Shown piece after piece: positions 49,873 through 60,607 of a stretch of DNA of 64,000 bases (position 1 is its first letter; each line of letters opens with the position of its first letter). The stretch is from an uncultured Coriobacteriaceae bacterium (lineage in GTDB: Bacteria; Actinomycetota; Coriobacteriia; Coriobacteriales; Atopobiaceae), in the NCBI GenBank assembly GCA_902779675.1, contig CACZCK010000002.1, positions 124,001-188,000 of the forward strand. Reading direction: 5' to 3'. The notes below the pieces were generated by a model that had not been told where the DNA came from, ran no database searches, and saw nothing but the letters and a program-made list of their open reading frames with translations. The translations under genes and the position numbers were made by a program.

Positions 49873-50439
49873 ATGCGCACCATGCCATCCAAGGACCTGC
49901 GCGTGACCAAGACGCTGGAGGCCATCGACACGACCTTCCGCGCCATGATGCTAGAGACGGGCTTCGAGGGCATCACCGTCAAGGCCCTCTGCGACCGCGC
50001 CCGTATCAACAAGAAGACCTTCTACCGTTACTACGAGACCCTCGACGACCTGCTCGCCGAGGTCATGGCCACCTATGCCGCCGCATGGCGCATGCGCACT
50101 ACGCGCCTCACCCCGCCCCAGGACCTCGCCGAGATCACGCGCGAGTTCTTCCGCTTTGGGGCGGAGCAGGACGAACTCTATGACGCCATCACTTGCGACC
50201 CGGCATATGACGTCATCCAGCGGCGTCTGCAGGACGACGCCAGCGGCGAGCACGCCGAGCTCGTGCCTGAGGGCTTCACCCCCGAGAGCTGGCATGTCTA
50301 CTATGCGTGGCAGACCGCGGGCACCCTGGCGATGTATAGGGCCTGGGTCGCCGATGGCAAGCACATGCCCGTGCGCGAGGTGTCCGAAATGGCCGTGACC
50401 CTACTCTGCACGGGCGTGGACGGGTTGCTCGCGCGCTAG
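49873..50439 (+). CDS. TetR/AcrR-family transcriptional regulator
   Basis: 188 residues from ATG 49873 with GAGGAGG upstream. The helix-turn-helix covers about residues 12-58 (VTKTLEAIDTTFRAMML, GITVKALCDRARINKKTFYR, YYETLDDLLAEV). The C-terminal domain is helical with a Trp/Tyr-rich pocket (ESWHVYYAWQTAGTLAMYR). It is divergent from the disrupted SnoaL-like gene, its likely former target. Its stop shares a CTAG with the stop of the convergent DUF3990 gene. Confidence 0.9.
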   Translation: MRTMPSKDLRVTKTLEAIDTTFRAMMLETGFEGITVKALCDRARINKKTFYRYYETLDDLLAEVMATYAAAWRMRTTRLTPPQDLAEITREFFRFGAEQDELYDAITCDPAYDVIQRRLQDDASGEHAELVPEGFTPESWHVYYAWQTAGTLAMYRAWVADGKHMPVREVSEMAVTLLCTGVDGLLAR

Positions 50440-50969
50440 GTCAGCGCCTCGACGAAGGCAAGGTGCCGGTCGATAACGCCTTGGTCGGTCAGGCAATACT
50501 GCACGCCCAGCATAGCCGGGTCGAGCGTGCGGGCAATCTCCTCCGCCGTCGCAAAGTCCACGCAGACCATCTCGATCTCCATGGTGGCCAGCCATGCCCG
50601 CACGATGGCGGGGCTTCCGAGCCTGGGAACCTCGGTCCTGCCCGCCCGACAGGCCTTGATGTAGTTTGCCCAGGCCACGATACCGGCCTCGGTCTCATCG
50701 AAGCGCAGGCCAAACGGTTGGTCAGCGTCTTCCGCGGGCAACACGGGTGCATCCTGCCCCCAGCTCGCCCAAGGCACGCAGCGCTCGTCAAGCTCAAAGA
50801 CCGAGACGGTCGCCACGCCACTCGTCTGCCGTGCGCGCATCACCGCGCGCTGCCGCGCAAGCCGCCCGTCGTCGGTGAGATAGAACCCACGGCCAAGGTC
50901 GGCAAAGCCCTCGTTGAGGGCAATCAGGGGCCTCGTGATGGCCACATCGGATCCGTGATACAGGCGCAT
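50436..50969 (-). CDS. DUF3990-like protein
   Basis: 177 residues from ATG 50969 (MRLYHGSDVAITRPLIALN) with GAGAGG upstream. The LYHGS, DLGRGFYLTDD and FELDERC segments match DUF3990, a family thought to have an ADP-ribosyltransferase-like fold; that fold assignment is from general knowledge of the family. The C-terminal half is helical (TAEEIARTLDPAMLG). Activity and target are unknown. Its TAG overlaps the TetR TAG on the other strand. Confidence 0.78.
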   Translation of the reverse strand: MRLYHGSDVAITRPLIALNEGFADLGRGFYLTDDGRLARQRAVMRARQTSGVATVSVFELDERCVPWASWGQDAPVLPAEDADQPFGLRFDETEAGIVAWANYIKACRAGRTEVPRLGSPAIVRAWLATMEIEMVCVDFATAEEIARTLDPAMLGVQYCLTDQGVIDRHLAFVEALT

Positions 50970-51155
50970 GGCAATCCCTCTCCTGCTCGCAGCGCTCAGC
51001 CACAAGCATCATCCCCTCTTGGTTTATTGCAAGTGTACGACAGGTTATATGTCGTCCTATAAGGTTTTGCGCCGCTCGAGTACCATCGCCTACGTGCTTT
51101 AGGCATCTAAAGCAGCTGGAACAACCGCCAGTCAGCGTAGGAAGGATTAAAACCC

Positions 51156-53343: not shown

Positions 53344-54051
53344 CTAGGCAAGCGCGAGACCCTTGGCCCAGTCAACCACCTCGTCGTGGGCGCCGTCAAC
53401 CGCCGTGCCGGCCACCGCGTAGCCGTCGAGGAAGCGCGCATCGGGAACGGCCGCCTGCAGGTTGGCAGGTACGCTGCCCAGACCCGACCCACCGTGGGTG
53501 GTAAAGGGCACGATGGTCTTGCCCGCCAGGTCCACGCCCTCCACAAAGGTGCGCACGATCATGGGCTCGTCGCCCCACCAGATGGGGCAGCCGATGAACA
53601 CGAGGTCGTAGCCCGAGACGTCAGGCAGTGGGTTGGCGATGGTGGGACGTGCGTCGTTACGCTGCTCCTCAAGGGCCACGTCACAGCAGTCGTCGTAGCC
53701 TTCGGGATAGGCCTCCGCAGGCACGATCTCGTACTGGTCGGCACCAAGTGCCTCGGCGATATAGCCAGCCATCACCTTGGTGTGACCCACCTCGAGCCAT
53801 TCGGTGCCGCCGTCGGCGTAGTTCTCATCGGCGCGGGAGTAGTAGGCCACAAGAATCTTGCCAGTCCCAGCCGCCCCTGGCTCTTCCTCGGCTGCGGGCG
53901 TCTCCGTGATGGCATCCTCCTCGACGGGAGCCTCGGCACCGGTCTCGTCGGACTCTGGCTCACCGCTTCCACCACAGGCGGCCAGCAGCATGGCTCCCAC
54001 CGTCGCACCTGCCGCCAGCACACCGCGGCGCGTCATCTTCCTTTTGGTCAC
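53344..54051 (-). CDS. Exported flavodoxin-like lipoprotein
   Basis: 235 residues from GTG 54051 with AAAGGA upstream; ATG 54036 is an alternative with too short spacing. The leader TRRGVLAAGATVGAMLLAAC has a twin arginine and lipobox, followed by an acidic linker. The flavodoxin domain begins ILVAYYSRADENYADGG, then DLVFIGCPIWWGDEP and PFTTHGGSGLGS, of the flavodoxin_4 type. Tat export would allow FMN to be carried folded. It lies 17 bp behind a DUF4405 membrane protein, suggesting extracytoplasmic electron transfer. Confidence 0.88.
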   Translation of the reverse strand: MTKRKMTRRGVLAAGATVGAMLLAACGGSGEPESDETGAEAPVEEDAITETPAAEEEPGAAGTGKILVAYYSRADENYADGGTEWLEVGHTKVMAGYIAEALGADQYEIVPAEAYPEGYDDCCDVALEEQRNDARPTIANPLPDVSGYDLVFIGCPIWWGDEPMIVRTFVEGVDLAGKTIVPFTTHGGSGLGSVPANLQAAVPDARFLDGYAVAGTAVDGAHDEVVDWAKGLALA

Positions 54052-54068
54052 GTTTTCTTTCCTTTCAG

Positions 54069-54767
54069 TCACTTTGCACGAAGCGCTTGGGCCTTTGCGC
54101 GCACCAGTCCATCGACGATTATCCCCAGCAGCACGAATGGCGAGGCAAGAGCGAGATGCAGTGCCAGCTGTACGCCGAGCGGCGTCATGCCGTCCGGAAA
54201 GCCCGGGGCACCTGCCAGTTTGCCGGCAACGCCCAGTCGCACAAAGGCCCAAGCGCCCAGCGCGAGCGCCGCGGCCAGTGCCGCAGCGGTCTTGGTGCGA
54301 TCTGAGGCCACCTGTCCGCGCACTCTGGCATACCCCCGCAGCACGCGCATGTGCATGCCCACGTGCAGCGACATGAGCATGAGGCCGAGGTACGCGCAGG
54401 TCCCGTGCAACTGGCGCACCACATGTGCCACCGCGGGAACCGTTGCCCAGGGCACCGCCGAACGAGACATGAGCACGCCCGTCAGCGCTAGGCCCGCCAC
54501 GCAGACCGTCAGCGCCACATCGCTCGCCAACACCAAGCGGGCTCGCATGTTGCCCGCACGCCCAAGGCGAAGCACCCATCCGCGATTGAGCATGTGATGG
54601 GTCACGAACAGCGCCGCCAGTGCAATGCCCGCAGCCTCATGTAGCGGGTTGCCCACCTTGCCGGGCGCCATCTGCAGCAGGTAGAGCACCGTCATCGACG
54701 CATCCACCACCGGTCGCAGCCAGCGCCTCGACCCGTCTCCCTCATGCCTTGCTACTGTGTCCGCCAT
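54069..54767 (-). CDS. DUF4405-like membrane protein (predicted b-heme)
   Basis: 232 residues from ATG 54767 with GAGGGTG upstream. Five or so hydrophobic helices are predicted. Paired histidines in LHEAAGIALAALFVTHHMLNRG and RQLHGTCAYLGLMLMSLH-VGMH fit the DUF4405 family, related to membrane cytochrome b subunits. It is first in an operon with the flavodoxin lipoprotein. Heme binding is inferred from the His spacing and family. Confidence 0.77.
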   Translation of the reverse strand: MADTVARHEGDGSRRWLRPVVDASMTVLYLLQMAPGKVGNPLHEAAGIALAALFVTHHMLNRGWVLRLGRAGNMRARLVLASDVALTVCVAGLALTGVLMSRSAVPWATVPAVAHVVRQLHGTCAYLGLMLMSLHVGMHMRVLRGYARVRGQVASDRTKTAAALAAALALGAWAFVRLGVAGKLAGAPGFPDGMTPLGVQLALHLALASPFVLLGIIVDGLVRAKAQALRAK

Positions 54768-56877: not shown

Positions 56878-57411
56878 TTAGGCGACCGGAGCGTCCCAAC
56901 GCGGGGCCGCCACGCCGAGCACCTGCTCGAGGGCACGCACGATGACCTCGTGATCCAGGCCCTCCATCAGGCCGCTCACACCGATGGTGGCCACCCACTC
57001 GTCGCCCACGCGGATGGGGAAGGCGCCGCAGGCAGGCACCTCCTCGGGTACGTTGGCCCAGACCTGGCTCGCGTCACCGGCAACCACAGCCTCGAGCTGC
57101 GCCCACGGACCGGCGTGGCCCGCCTTGAGCGCGGAATGGCGCTTGCCGTCGGCAAAGAGCAGGTTACGCTCGCCCTTGCTGTCGTCGACCCACTGGAACA
57201 TGCGCACACCGTCCGCCTCGCGCGTGATGGTGATGCTGTACCCCTCCCCAAACTGGGGGATGAGGCCGATGGCAGCCTGTCCGAGCTCAAGTGCCTCATA
57301 GGCACCAAAGCTCTCCGCATAGCGAAGGATGCGTTCCTGCTCCAGCAGCACCTCCATGGCCTTGCGGGCGTCGTCGGCGGTCAGCATGGGAGCGGGGATG
57401 TTCTCGGCCAT
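56878..57411 (-). CDS. UPF0303/GlcG-HbpS-like (heme-degrading domain) protein
   Basis: 177 residues with AAGGAG before the ATG. It matches the UPF0303 family: LTADDARKAMEVLLEQERIL, GYSITITREADGVRMFQWVD, KRHSALKAGHAG (conserved His/Lys) and GAFPIRVGDEWVATIGVSGL. The fold is PAS/profilin-like and shared with HbpS and GlcG. Some members bind heme; the role of this one is unknown. It lies 52 bp downstream of the cytosolic flavodoxin, in a probable redox operon. Confidence 0.87.
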   Translation of the reverse strand: MAENIPAPMLTADDARKAMEVLLEQERILRYAESFGAYEALELGQAAIGLIPQFGEGYSITITREADGVRMFQWVDDSKGERNLLFADGKRHSALKAGHAGPWAQLEAVVAGDASQVWANVPEEVPACGAFPIRVGDEWVATIGVSGLMEGLDHEVIVRALEQVLGVAAPRWDAPVA

Positions 57412-57463: not shown

Positions 57464-57979
57464 TTACGCCAAGGCCTTCTTGGCCCAGCTGATGGCACGA
57501 CCCGTGGAGCGTGCGGCATCGGTGCCGCGGACGGAGAGGCCCTCCACCACATTTGCAGCCGGATAGGTGCGGCGAAGGTCGCTCACGGAGTTACCCAGGC
57601 CCGAGCCCTCGTTGGTGCACAGCGGCGCGATGGTCACGCCCGTCAGGTCGCAACCGTCGAGGAAGGTCTTGACCGCCATGGGCATGGTACCCCACCAGTT
57701 GGGGTAGCCCAGCACGATGGCATCGACGCCCTCCATGTTGGGAAGCGGGCCCTGGATAGCGGGGCGAGCGTTTTCACGCAGCTCGCGCTTGGCCTGGTCG
57801 GTGGTGGCAAAGTAGTCGGTGGGGTAGGGCTCGACCGTCTCGATCTTGAAGAGGTCGGCGCCGAGGTCGGCCGCGATCGCCTCGGCCAGCACCTCGGTGT
57901 TGCCCTTGGGCAGATCGATGACGCCACCATTGCCATAGTTCTGACCGGCGCGAGAGTAGTAGGCAACGAGCGTGGACAT
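57464..57979 (-). CDS. Cytosolic flavodoxin (flavodoxin_4 type)
   Basis: 171 residues with AAGGAG upstream. It has MSTLVAYYSRAGQNYGNGG, LPKGNTEVLAEAIA (FMN phosphate loop GNT), DAIVLGYPNWWGTMPMAVKT and PLCTNEGSGLGNS. It is the soluble homolog of the exported flavodoxin at 53.3 kb, without signal peptide. It carries electrons via FMN. It is divergent from a LysR regulator with paired direct repeats between them, and precedes UPF0303. Confidence 0.92.
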   Translation of the reverse strand: MSTLVAYYSRAGQNYGNGGVIDLPKGNTEVLAEAIAADLGADLFKIETVEPYPTDYFATTDQAKRELRENARPAIQGPLPNMEGVDAIVLGYPNWWGTMPMAVKTFLDGCDLTGVTIAPLCTNEGSGLGNSVSDLRRTYPAANVVEGLSVRGTDAARSTGRAISWAKKALA

Positions 57980-58027
57980 GTGAGGACTCCTTATCCCTCG
58001 GGTTTCGTTGGTCTTATCTTATGTGCC

Positions 58028-58081
58028 GAATAACTGATAAACAATTCTGTTCAGTTGTCTTTTTAATTAGAATTACTGATA
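58028..58081. promoter_or_regulatory. Paired direct repeats in the flavodoxin/LysR divergent promoter
   Basis: GAATAACTGATA (58028-58039) and GAATTACTGATA (58070-58081), 42 bp apart (about four turns), in an AT-rich island. This is a plausible pair of LysR contact sites; assignment is by position. Confidence 0.45.
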
Positions 58082-58104
58082 GTTTGAACGTCGGAGGGAA
58101 CGCC

Positions 58105-60607
<2,503 letters not shown>

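Follow-up and report, generated by a model that had tools for sequence, protein, structure and literature searches.

A conserved gene pair for a DUF4405 membrane protein and an exported flavodoxin, very probably a transmembrane electron-transfer unit and seemingly able to do without covalently bonded flavin

Covalent attachment has been taken as the bacterial means of keeping flavins on proteins outside the cell, and in the MsrP-MsrQ system, a heme b membrane protein feeds a Tat-exported oxidoreductase. The closest described relatives of the locus analyzed here are the apbE-DUF4405 gene clusters of Huang et al. (2024), which often hold a flavinylated Flavodoxin_4; that work demonstrates heme b in an Oscillospiraceae DUF4405 protein and flavinylation by ApbE of two Flavodoxin_4 proteins that have an inserted motif, remarks on signs of flavinylation in extracytosolic flavodoxins, and presumes that the DUF4405 cytochromes take part in electron transfer outside the cytosol (PMC11334425). 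It also compares MsrQ with DUF4405, finding low sequence similarity, and describes the FMN in the structure 3KLB as non-covalently bound (PMC11334425). DUF4405 was placed in the cytochrome b family in 2015 (PMC5898192), and the genes named as preserved in a dehalogenation region include a DUF4405 gene and, in the available portion of that article, no flavodoxin gene (PMC8865925). A phrase search of the literature on exported flavodoxins returned the 2024 work and one unrelated use. The pairing of DUF4405 with Flavodoxin_4 in general is already published (PMC11334425), and the pair described here is a variant of it.

The window is the whole stretch of DNA that was analyzed, 64,000 nucleotides at positions 124001-188000 of contig C2 in the 2.9-Mb genome of an uncultured Coriobacteriaceae bacterium (G000), whose nearest named relatives, judged by the flavodoxin, are MAGs labelled Atopobiaceae or Coriobacteriaceae, and several of these came from the gut of roe deer, water deer, or sheep. 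On the minus strand, the DUF4405 gene (54767-54069) is followed by the Flavodoxin_4 gene (54051-53344), and the 17 bases between them (54052-54068) agree with the spacing given in a sequence-only reading of this DNA, which had proposed that the pair could pass electrons from the membrane to an external flavin carrier. Our analysis supports that proposal: the pair very probably serves transmembrane electron transfer and, unlike the published version, seems able to do so without a covalently bonded flavin. The features on which the argument turns are the following, in window positions.

53344..54051, minus strand: exported Flavodoxin_4 lipoprotein, 235 aa, GTG start at 54051 (PF12682)
53974..54051, minus strand: twin-arginine leader and lipobox, TRRGVL ... 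LAAC, C26 (from sequence, conservation, and TatC in the genome)
54069..54767, minus strand: DUF4405 six-helix membrane protein, predicted two-heme b-type cytochrome, 232 aa (PF14358)
54639..54641, minus strand: H43, predicted outer-side heme ligand (invariance in alignments)
54597..54599, minus strand: H57, predicted inner-side heme ligand (invariance in alignments)
54405..54407, minus strand: H121, predicted outer-side heme ligand (invariance in alignments)
54363..54365, minus strand: H135, predicted inner-side heme ligand (invariance in alignments)
56878-57411: HbpS-like gene (counterpart in locus L064)
57464..57979, minus strand: cytosolic Flavodoxin_4 paralogue, possible inner-side partner (PF12682, 87.2 bits)
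58021..58998, plus strand: LysR regulator, divergent from the cytosolic flavodoxin (PF00126, PF03466)

Profile searches of the whole genome gave five matches for Flavodoxin_4, one for DUF4405, one for apbE (on another contig), and one for FMN_bind, and TatC is present. No match to a promoter or terminator was found near the pair. The histidine phosphatase gene at 53316-52738 was considered as a third operon member and rejected, as it turned up in L063 alone of 11 related loci, at a distance of about 1.7 kb from the flavodoxin. A DUF3990 protein at 50436-51005 (PF13151, 54.1 bits) is unrelated to the pair.

The DUF4405 protein matches PF14358 with 34.5 bits, above the curated cut-off of 26.7, and has the features of its family, with six helices in the AlphaFold model (mean pLDDT 90.0) and four conserved histidines in the alignments. 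With the helix ends assigned manually, counts of loop lysines and arginines place both termini in the cytosol. The His pairs that had been read as suited to b-heme are present as H43/H57 and H121/H135; all four residues are found without exception in aligned family homologues (14 of 14) and in wider ones (23 of 23; the sets overlap), and the spacing within each pair is exactly 14 residues in every alignment row. Two-heme cytochromes b have this 14-residue histidine spacing. Heme b binding by the window protein is predicted, the homologue with heme b being the Oscillospiraceae protein. Foldseek returned no significant structural match for the model, and on top of the VIA structural list was E. 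coli superoxide oxidase (5OC0), with 135 residues at 3.2 A and a Z of 9.8, too low to be relied on for helical bundles. Heme A synthase, formate dehydrogenase gamma, STEAP4, and the NOX5 membrane domain appear lower down, and because they are mixed with unrelated helical bundles, these neighbors are suggestive only.

The flavodoxin scores 104.5 bits against PF12682 (cut-off 24), and its N-terminus, MTKRKMTRRGVLAAGATVGAMLLAAC, contains a twin arginine, a hydrophobic stretch, and a lipobox. The Tat-type leader and lipobox of the sequence-only reading are borne out by TRRGVL and LAAC in the sequence, by conservation of the leader across relatives, and by TatC in the genome, and the protein is predicted to be a Tat-exported lipoprotein on the outer face of the membrane. 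Twin arginines are found in 26 of the 27 exported Coriobacteriia flavodoxins with a visible leader (one Coriobacteriia protein, L107, has a Sec leader), a count that is partly hand reading, as the leader classes came from a script and 18 rows were corrected by eye. The start of L049:4515 is not visible, and it was omitted from this count and retained in the count of 28 used for the flavinylation motif below; L123:3650, cytosolic in one classing and exported in another, is doubtful and was placed in the non-Coriobacteriia group. Near-duplicates L088 and L135 were dropped, and L162 and L163, which hold the same genes as L065 and L064, were not counted.

The modelled fold of the flavodoxin is that of 4ICI, 4J8P, and 3KLB (TM by target 0.77-0.81), and the candidate FMN-loop residues S72, G89, T91, W158-W159, T185, and G188-G190, through which the protein is predicted to bind FMN, show no variation across 20 sequences. 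A tree of 164 flavodoxin domains, made by a quick method and with many weak forks, needs only 6 changes between exported and cytosolic forms, compared with 33.5 in shuffles; with so few changes, the exported forms look like old lineages rather than stray leader predictions. The flavodoxins that neighbor DUF4405 in Coriobacteriia fall into several separate clades on this tree, namely the window's own group, an SWSGNT group, the FGE fusions, a group of L050, L072, and L110, and L040 with L042.

Conservation of the pairing was examined from both genes. The PF14358 search of the order covered 297 genomes and gave a match in 140, of which 17 belong to the window's family (the window's own genome included); loci were fetched for 14 of these, and an exported flavodoxin lies beside DUF4405 in 12 of the 14, the exceptions being L043 and L045. 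Conserved linkage, whose absence the sequence-only reading had named as refuting it, is therefore what we find. The arrangement varies, with the two genes convergent in L040 and separated by about 730 bases in L047. In L038 (5359-6063; G273, of the same genus), an in-frame TAG separates the leader part of the window flavodoxin's orthologue from the remainder, marking either a pseudogene or an error in an incomplete assembly; L038 is paired in the count of 12 and lacks an intact exported flavodoxin in the 49-locus count given below.

The pairing is also found in Eggerthellaceae, clostridia, Treponema, and Methanobrevibacter. Within the class of the Lachnospiraceae genome G316 (the clostridial set), the DUF4405 alignment matched 21 places in 19 of 291 genomes, and 20 of the places were fetched. 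An exported flavodoxin is within about 5 kb in 11 of the 13 fetched six-helix DUF4405 proteins of at least 140 bits, and within 400 bases in 8, the 140-bit line having been chosen after the hits were seen; among the seven fetched loci below that line, L153-L158 have no flavodoxin and L159, with a 37-bit DUF4405 fragment, has two. The flavodoxin-centered scan yielded 79 loci, with DUF4405 above 120 bits in 23 (including L089, L094, and L109 of Methanobrevibacter and L081, L103, and L119 of Treponema) and none above that score in 56. Altogether, 43 of 49 DUF4405 loci have an exported flavodoxin, 38 of them within 800 bases, and 20 have a cytosolic Flavodoxin_4, figures that are not an unbiased rate because DUF4405-centered and flavodoxin-centered scans are mixed in them.

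Four DUF4405 loci from another family of the order (L051-L054) and 30 loci, each about 3 kb long, from other families (L007-L036) yielded no flavodoxin match, which shows that not every DUF4405 is paired in this way. Loci L064, L065, and L164, which carry close orthologues of the window flavodoxin, contain no DUF4405, suggesting that this flavodoxin may have other partners. The genomes of L064 and L065 (G295 and G263, matched by identical apbE places) have DUF4405 beside another exported flavodoxin (L039 and L048), and the source of L164 (G285) gave no DUF4405 match anywhere in its genome.

Exported flavodoxins are found in other settings as well. For those without DUF4405, 174 same-strand neighbors were found and 88 scanned, among them 10 DUF362, 8 SDR, 8 hexapeptide, and 7 aldo/keto reductase proteins. 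By reading, an exported flavodoxin in L117 (4095-6389) runs in frame into an apparent aldo/keto reductase, and L128:638-2536 and L123:5738-7735 are multi-domain exported flavodoxins with tandem flavodoxin domains and an apparent flavodoxin-DUF362 fusion. The protein at L126:3267-4304 joins a flavodoxin with a cyclophilin-like domain and carries the flavinylation motif, and a Treponema reading frame (L125:3843-5492) continues from a GGDEF-like membrane protein into a Flavodoxin_4 domain, either as a fusion or as an assembly artefact. Selenomonadaceae-type loci (L090, L097, L098, L112, L134) encode two exported flavodoxins separated by a few kb, of which one has a Tat-type non-lipoprotein leader and the other a Sec lipoprotein leader; no DUF4405 was found in these loci.

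One natural fusion joins the two families of the pair. In L146 (3504-5672; G463, clostridial set), a single 721-aa ORF contains DUF4405, FGE-sulfatase, and Flavodoxin_4 domains, all three above their Pfam cut-offs, with one extra hydrophobic stretch read from the sequence between the DUF4405 and FGE domains. With this additional helix, and with both ends of the membrane part in the cytosol as predicted for the window protein, the FGE-like and flavodoxin parts would be outside. FGE-flavodoxin proteins without a membrane part adjoin DUF4405 or share its locus in L039, L041, L044, L049, L101, L145, L147, and L149, and the Coriobacteriia ones with a visible start (L039, L041, L044, L101) have a twin-arginine lipoprotein leader of their own. 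By reading, there seems to be no Cys in the stretch of these proteins that we take to correspond to the active-site cysteine stretch of FGE. Literature searches found no report that combines flavodoxin, a formylglycine-generating domain, and cytochrome b, and none of a fusion between flavodoxin and a sulfatase-modifying factor. Fusions of the L146 type would allow direct electron transfer between domains to be tested in one polypeptide.

The cytosolic homologue of the flavodoxin that had been placed near 57.5 kb was located at 57979-57464. Loci L066 and L038, as fetched, contain such a paralogue together with the pair, and L064 contains one with the exported flavodoxin alone; in all three loci a LysR gene adjoins the cytosolic flavodoxin. 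A third, canonical Flavodoxin_4 (216.8 bits) is just left of the window (G000:C2:121604-122059), so that a span of about 60 kb holds three of the five matches in the genome.

The flavinylation motif, searched with the pattern D..[ST][GAS]A[ST] in the loop after the first strand, is absent from the window flavodoxin, and the same pattern does detect it in L126, L140, L142, and L143. Near the first strand, it is found in none of the 28 exported Coriobacteriia flavodoxins and, outside Coriobacteriia, in 6 of 98 flavodoxins classed as exported, of which 3 have a DUF4405 gene no more than 800 bases away; the near-motifs of L142, L144, and L145 were left uncounted, and because alignment A1, used to scan the genome contigs, favors window-like proteins, the motif-less share is biased upward. 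There is no apbE in the gene cluster of the window, the only one found being on contig C1 while the pair is on C2, and the FMN_bind protein of the genome is another likely substrate for ApbE. Flavinylation of the window flavodoxin was rejected on the absence of the motif and the location of apbE. A strict rule by which a Tat leader replaces flavinylation was also rejected, as Sec-exported flavodoxins outside Coriobacteriia include 84 without the motif and 6 with it, and L107 has a Sec leader. The ApbE of the window genome (L057, G000:C1:70813-71631) itself begins with a twin-arginine lipoprotein-like leader, ITRRGLLRAG...LLAAC.

The presence of apbE was taken from PF02424 searches, since the in-locus ApbE profile was built from four close sequences. 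By this measure, apbE was undetected in 7 of 25 genomes of named loci (G299, G303, G305, G307, G308, G310, G312), in G072 and G253 of the family set (the locus of G253 was unfetched), and in 5 of 12 clostridial-set genomes (G576, G331, G472, G406, G587), two of which (G472 and G406) lack a flavodoxin in the locus. Of the apbE-less genomes, 12 were searched for FMN_bind, and only G305 and G331 gave a match, leaving 10 without. The pair was seen, with both apbE and FMN_bind undetected, in nine genomes (G072, G299, G303, G307, G308, G310, G312, G576, G587), three of them Methanobrevibacter and one Treponema. Single absences are weak, as many of the genomes are MAGs (G587 has only 1.2 Mb), but the three Methanobrevibacter genomes and the nine double absences taken together are not weak evidence. 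The clostridial-set genomes with motif-bearing flavodoxins (G523, G355, G570) all have apbE, which in G355 is about 6.5 kb from one DUF4405.

We consider it likely that the two proteins form one electron-transfer unit, consisting of a two-heme DUF4405 conduit and a Tat-exported lipoprotein that binds FMN non-covalently, with flow most likely outward and with no need for ApbE to attach the flavin covalently. The computed basis is the conserved pairing, the leader, the histidines, the missing flavinylation motif, and the natural fusion, and the cofactors in the window proteins, the heme pairing, the direction, the donor, and the acceptor are inferred. The DUF4405 cytochrome would hold two b hemes stacked across the membrane, with H43 and H121 as ligands on the outer side and H57 and H135 on the inner side. 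The flavodoxin would fold around FMN in the cytosol, leave through the Tat channel, and be tethered outside by a lipid on C26, and the outer heme would face the lipid-anchored FMN protein. Electrons from a cytosolic donor or menaquinol would pass through the two hemes to the outside FMN, most likely in the outward direction, and from there to extracytosolic reductions. Outward flow is taken because a cytosolic flavodoxin is often nearby and because related cytochromes have been read as serving extracytosolic electron transfer. Tat export of a flavodoxin already folded around FMN could make covalent attachment dispensable, although it cannot be the whole story, since Sec-exported forms without the motif are common elsewhere.

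The published arrangement, in which ApbE would attach FMN covalently to the exported flavodoxin and DUF4405 would feed it, shares both families with the window (PMC11334425), and the window genome has one apbE. Motif-bearing cousins are beside DUF4405 in L140 and L143 and further off in L142 and L131, and the genomes of L140, L142, and L143 have apbE. We nevertheless regard this arrangement as highly unlikely for the window pair, because the motif is missing here and in all 28 exported Coriobacteriia flavodoxins, apbE is on another contig with an FMN_bind protein available as its substrate, and pairs lacking the motif are present in genomes where apbE is undetected. That the two genes are chance neighbors is scarcely credible: the orthologues in L064, L065, and L164 that lack a DUF4405 nearby would fit, but the pairing is conserved across bacteria and archaea and the families are naturally fused.

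Two further explanations accept the partnership and change its purpose. Electrons could flow the other way, gathered outside by the flavodoxin and passed by DUF4405 to the quinone pool or the cytosol, as in superoxide oxidase, which tops the VIA list; sequence leaves the direction unfixed, but a possible low-potential donor, the cytosolic flavodoxin, is found in 20 of 49 DUF4405 loci, and extracytosolic electron transfer is the presumed role of the published cytochromes (PMC11334425), making reverse flow quite unlikely. Alternatively, the exported flavodoxin could itself be an enzyme, a quinone, azo, ferric, or heme-iron reductase that DUF4405 merely re-reduces. WrbA and azoreductase folds are among its structural matches, and the HbpS-like gene at 56878-57411, also found in L064, hints at heme or iron, but HbpS-like genes were found in just 1 of 11 related loci examined, and we hold this explanation to be unlikely.

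Beyond the window, the outward electron-transfer unit may be one instance of a general ApbE-free mode of extracytosolic flavin electron transfer, which we offer as a tentative and possible extension. Its exported flavodoxin would bind FMN non-covalently, before Tat export or, in Sec lineages, outside the cell; DUF4405 would drive it, often with a cytosolic flavodoxin inside, and the FGE-like/flavodoxin fusions would be dedicated outer modules, across Actinomycetota, Bacillota, Spirochaetota, and methanogens. If true, this would be a flavodoxin-heme-heme-flavodoxin wire, and it would cut against the published generalization of flavinylated extracytosolic flavodoxins. A conserved motif-less pair, partly without detectable apbE, suggests a second solution for flavins outside the cell, and the pair comes here chiefly from gut and rumen bacteria and from methanogens, for which disposing of electrons outside the cytosol is important.

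Compared with known systems, the DUF4405 model has its best VIA neighbor in E. coli superoxide oxidase, a cytochrome b561 (5OC0), with a Z-score that is not decisive for helical bundles, and 5OC0 is a four-helix protein whereas the window DUF4405 has six helices. To our knowledge, superoxide oxidase has no flavodoxin partner. The window pair resembles MsrP-MsrQ in its predicted combination of a heme b membrane protein with a Tat-exported oxidoreductase, but the paired gene is a Flavodoxin_4 and not the molybdoenzyme MsrP. The window flavodoxin has its fold and FMN loops in common with 3KLB, 4ICI, and 4J8P, and differs from them in having a leader for export, a lipobox, and an extended loop following the first strand. 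Finally, the apbE-Flavodoxin_4-DUF4405 clusters of Huang et al. share with the window both families, an exported flavodoxin, and a six-helix, four-histidine DUF4405 (PMC11334425). Unlike those clusters, the window has no flavinylation motif and has its apbE outside the cluster, and its wider group is set apart by pairs in genomes without detectable apbE, by the Tat leader in nearly all Coriobacteriia counted, and by the FGE-like fusions of its relatives.
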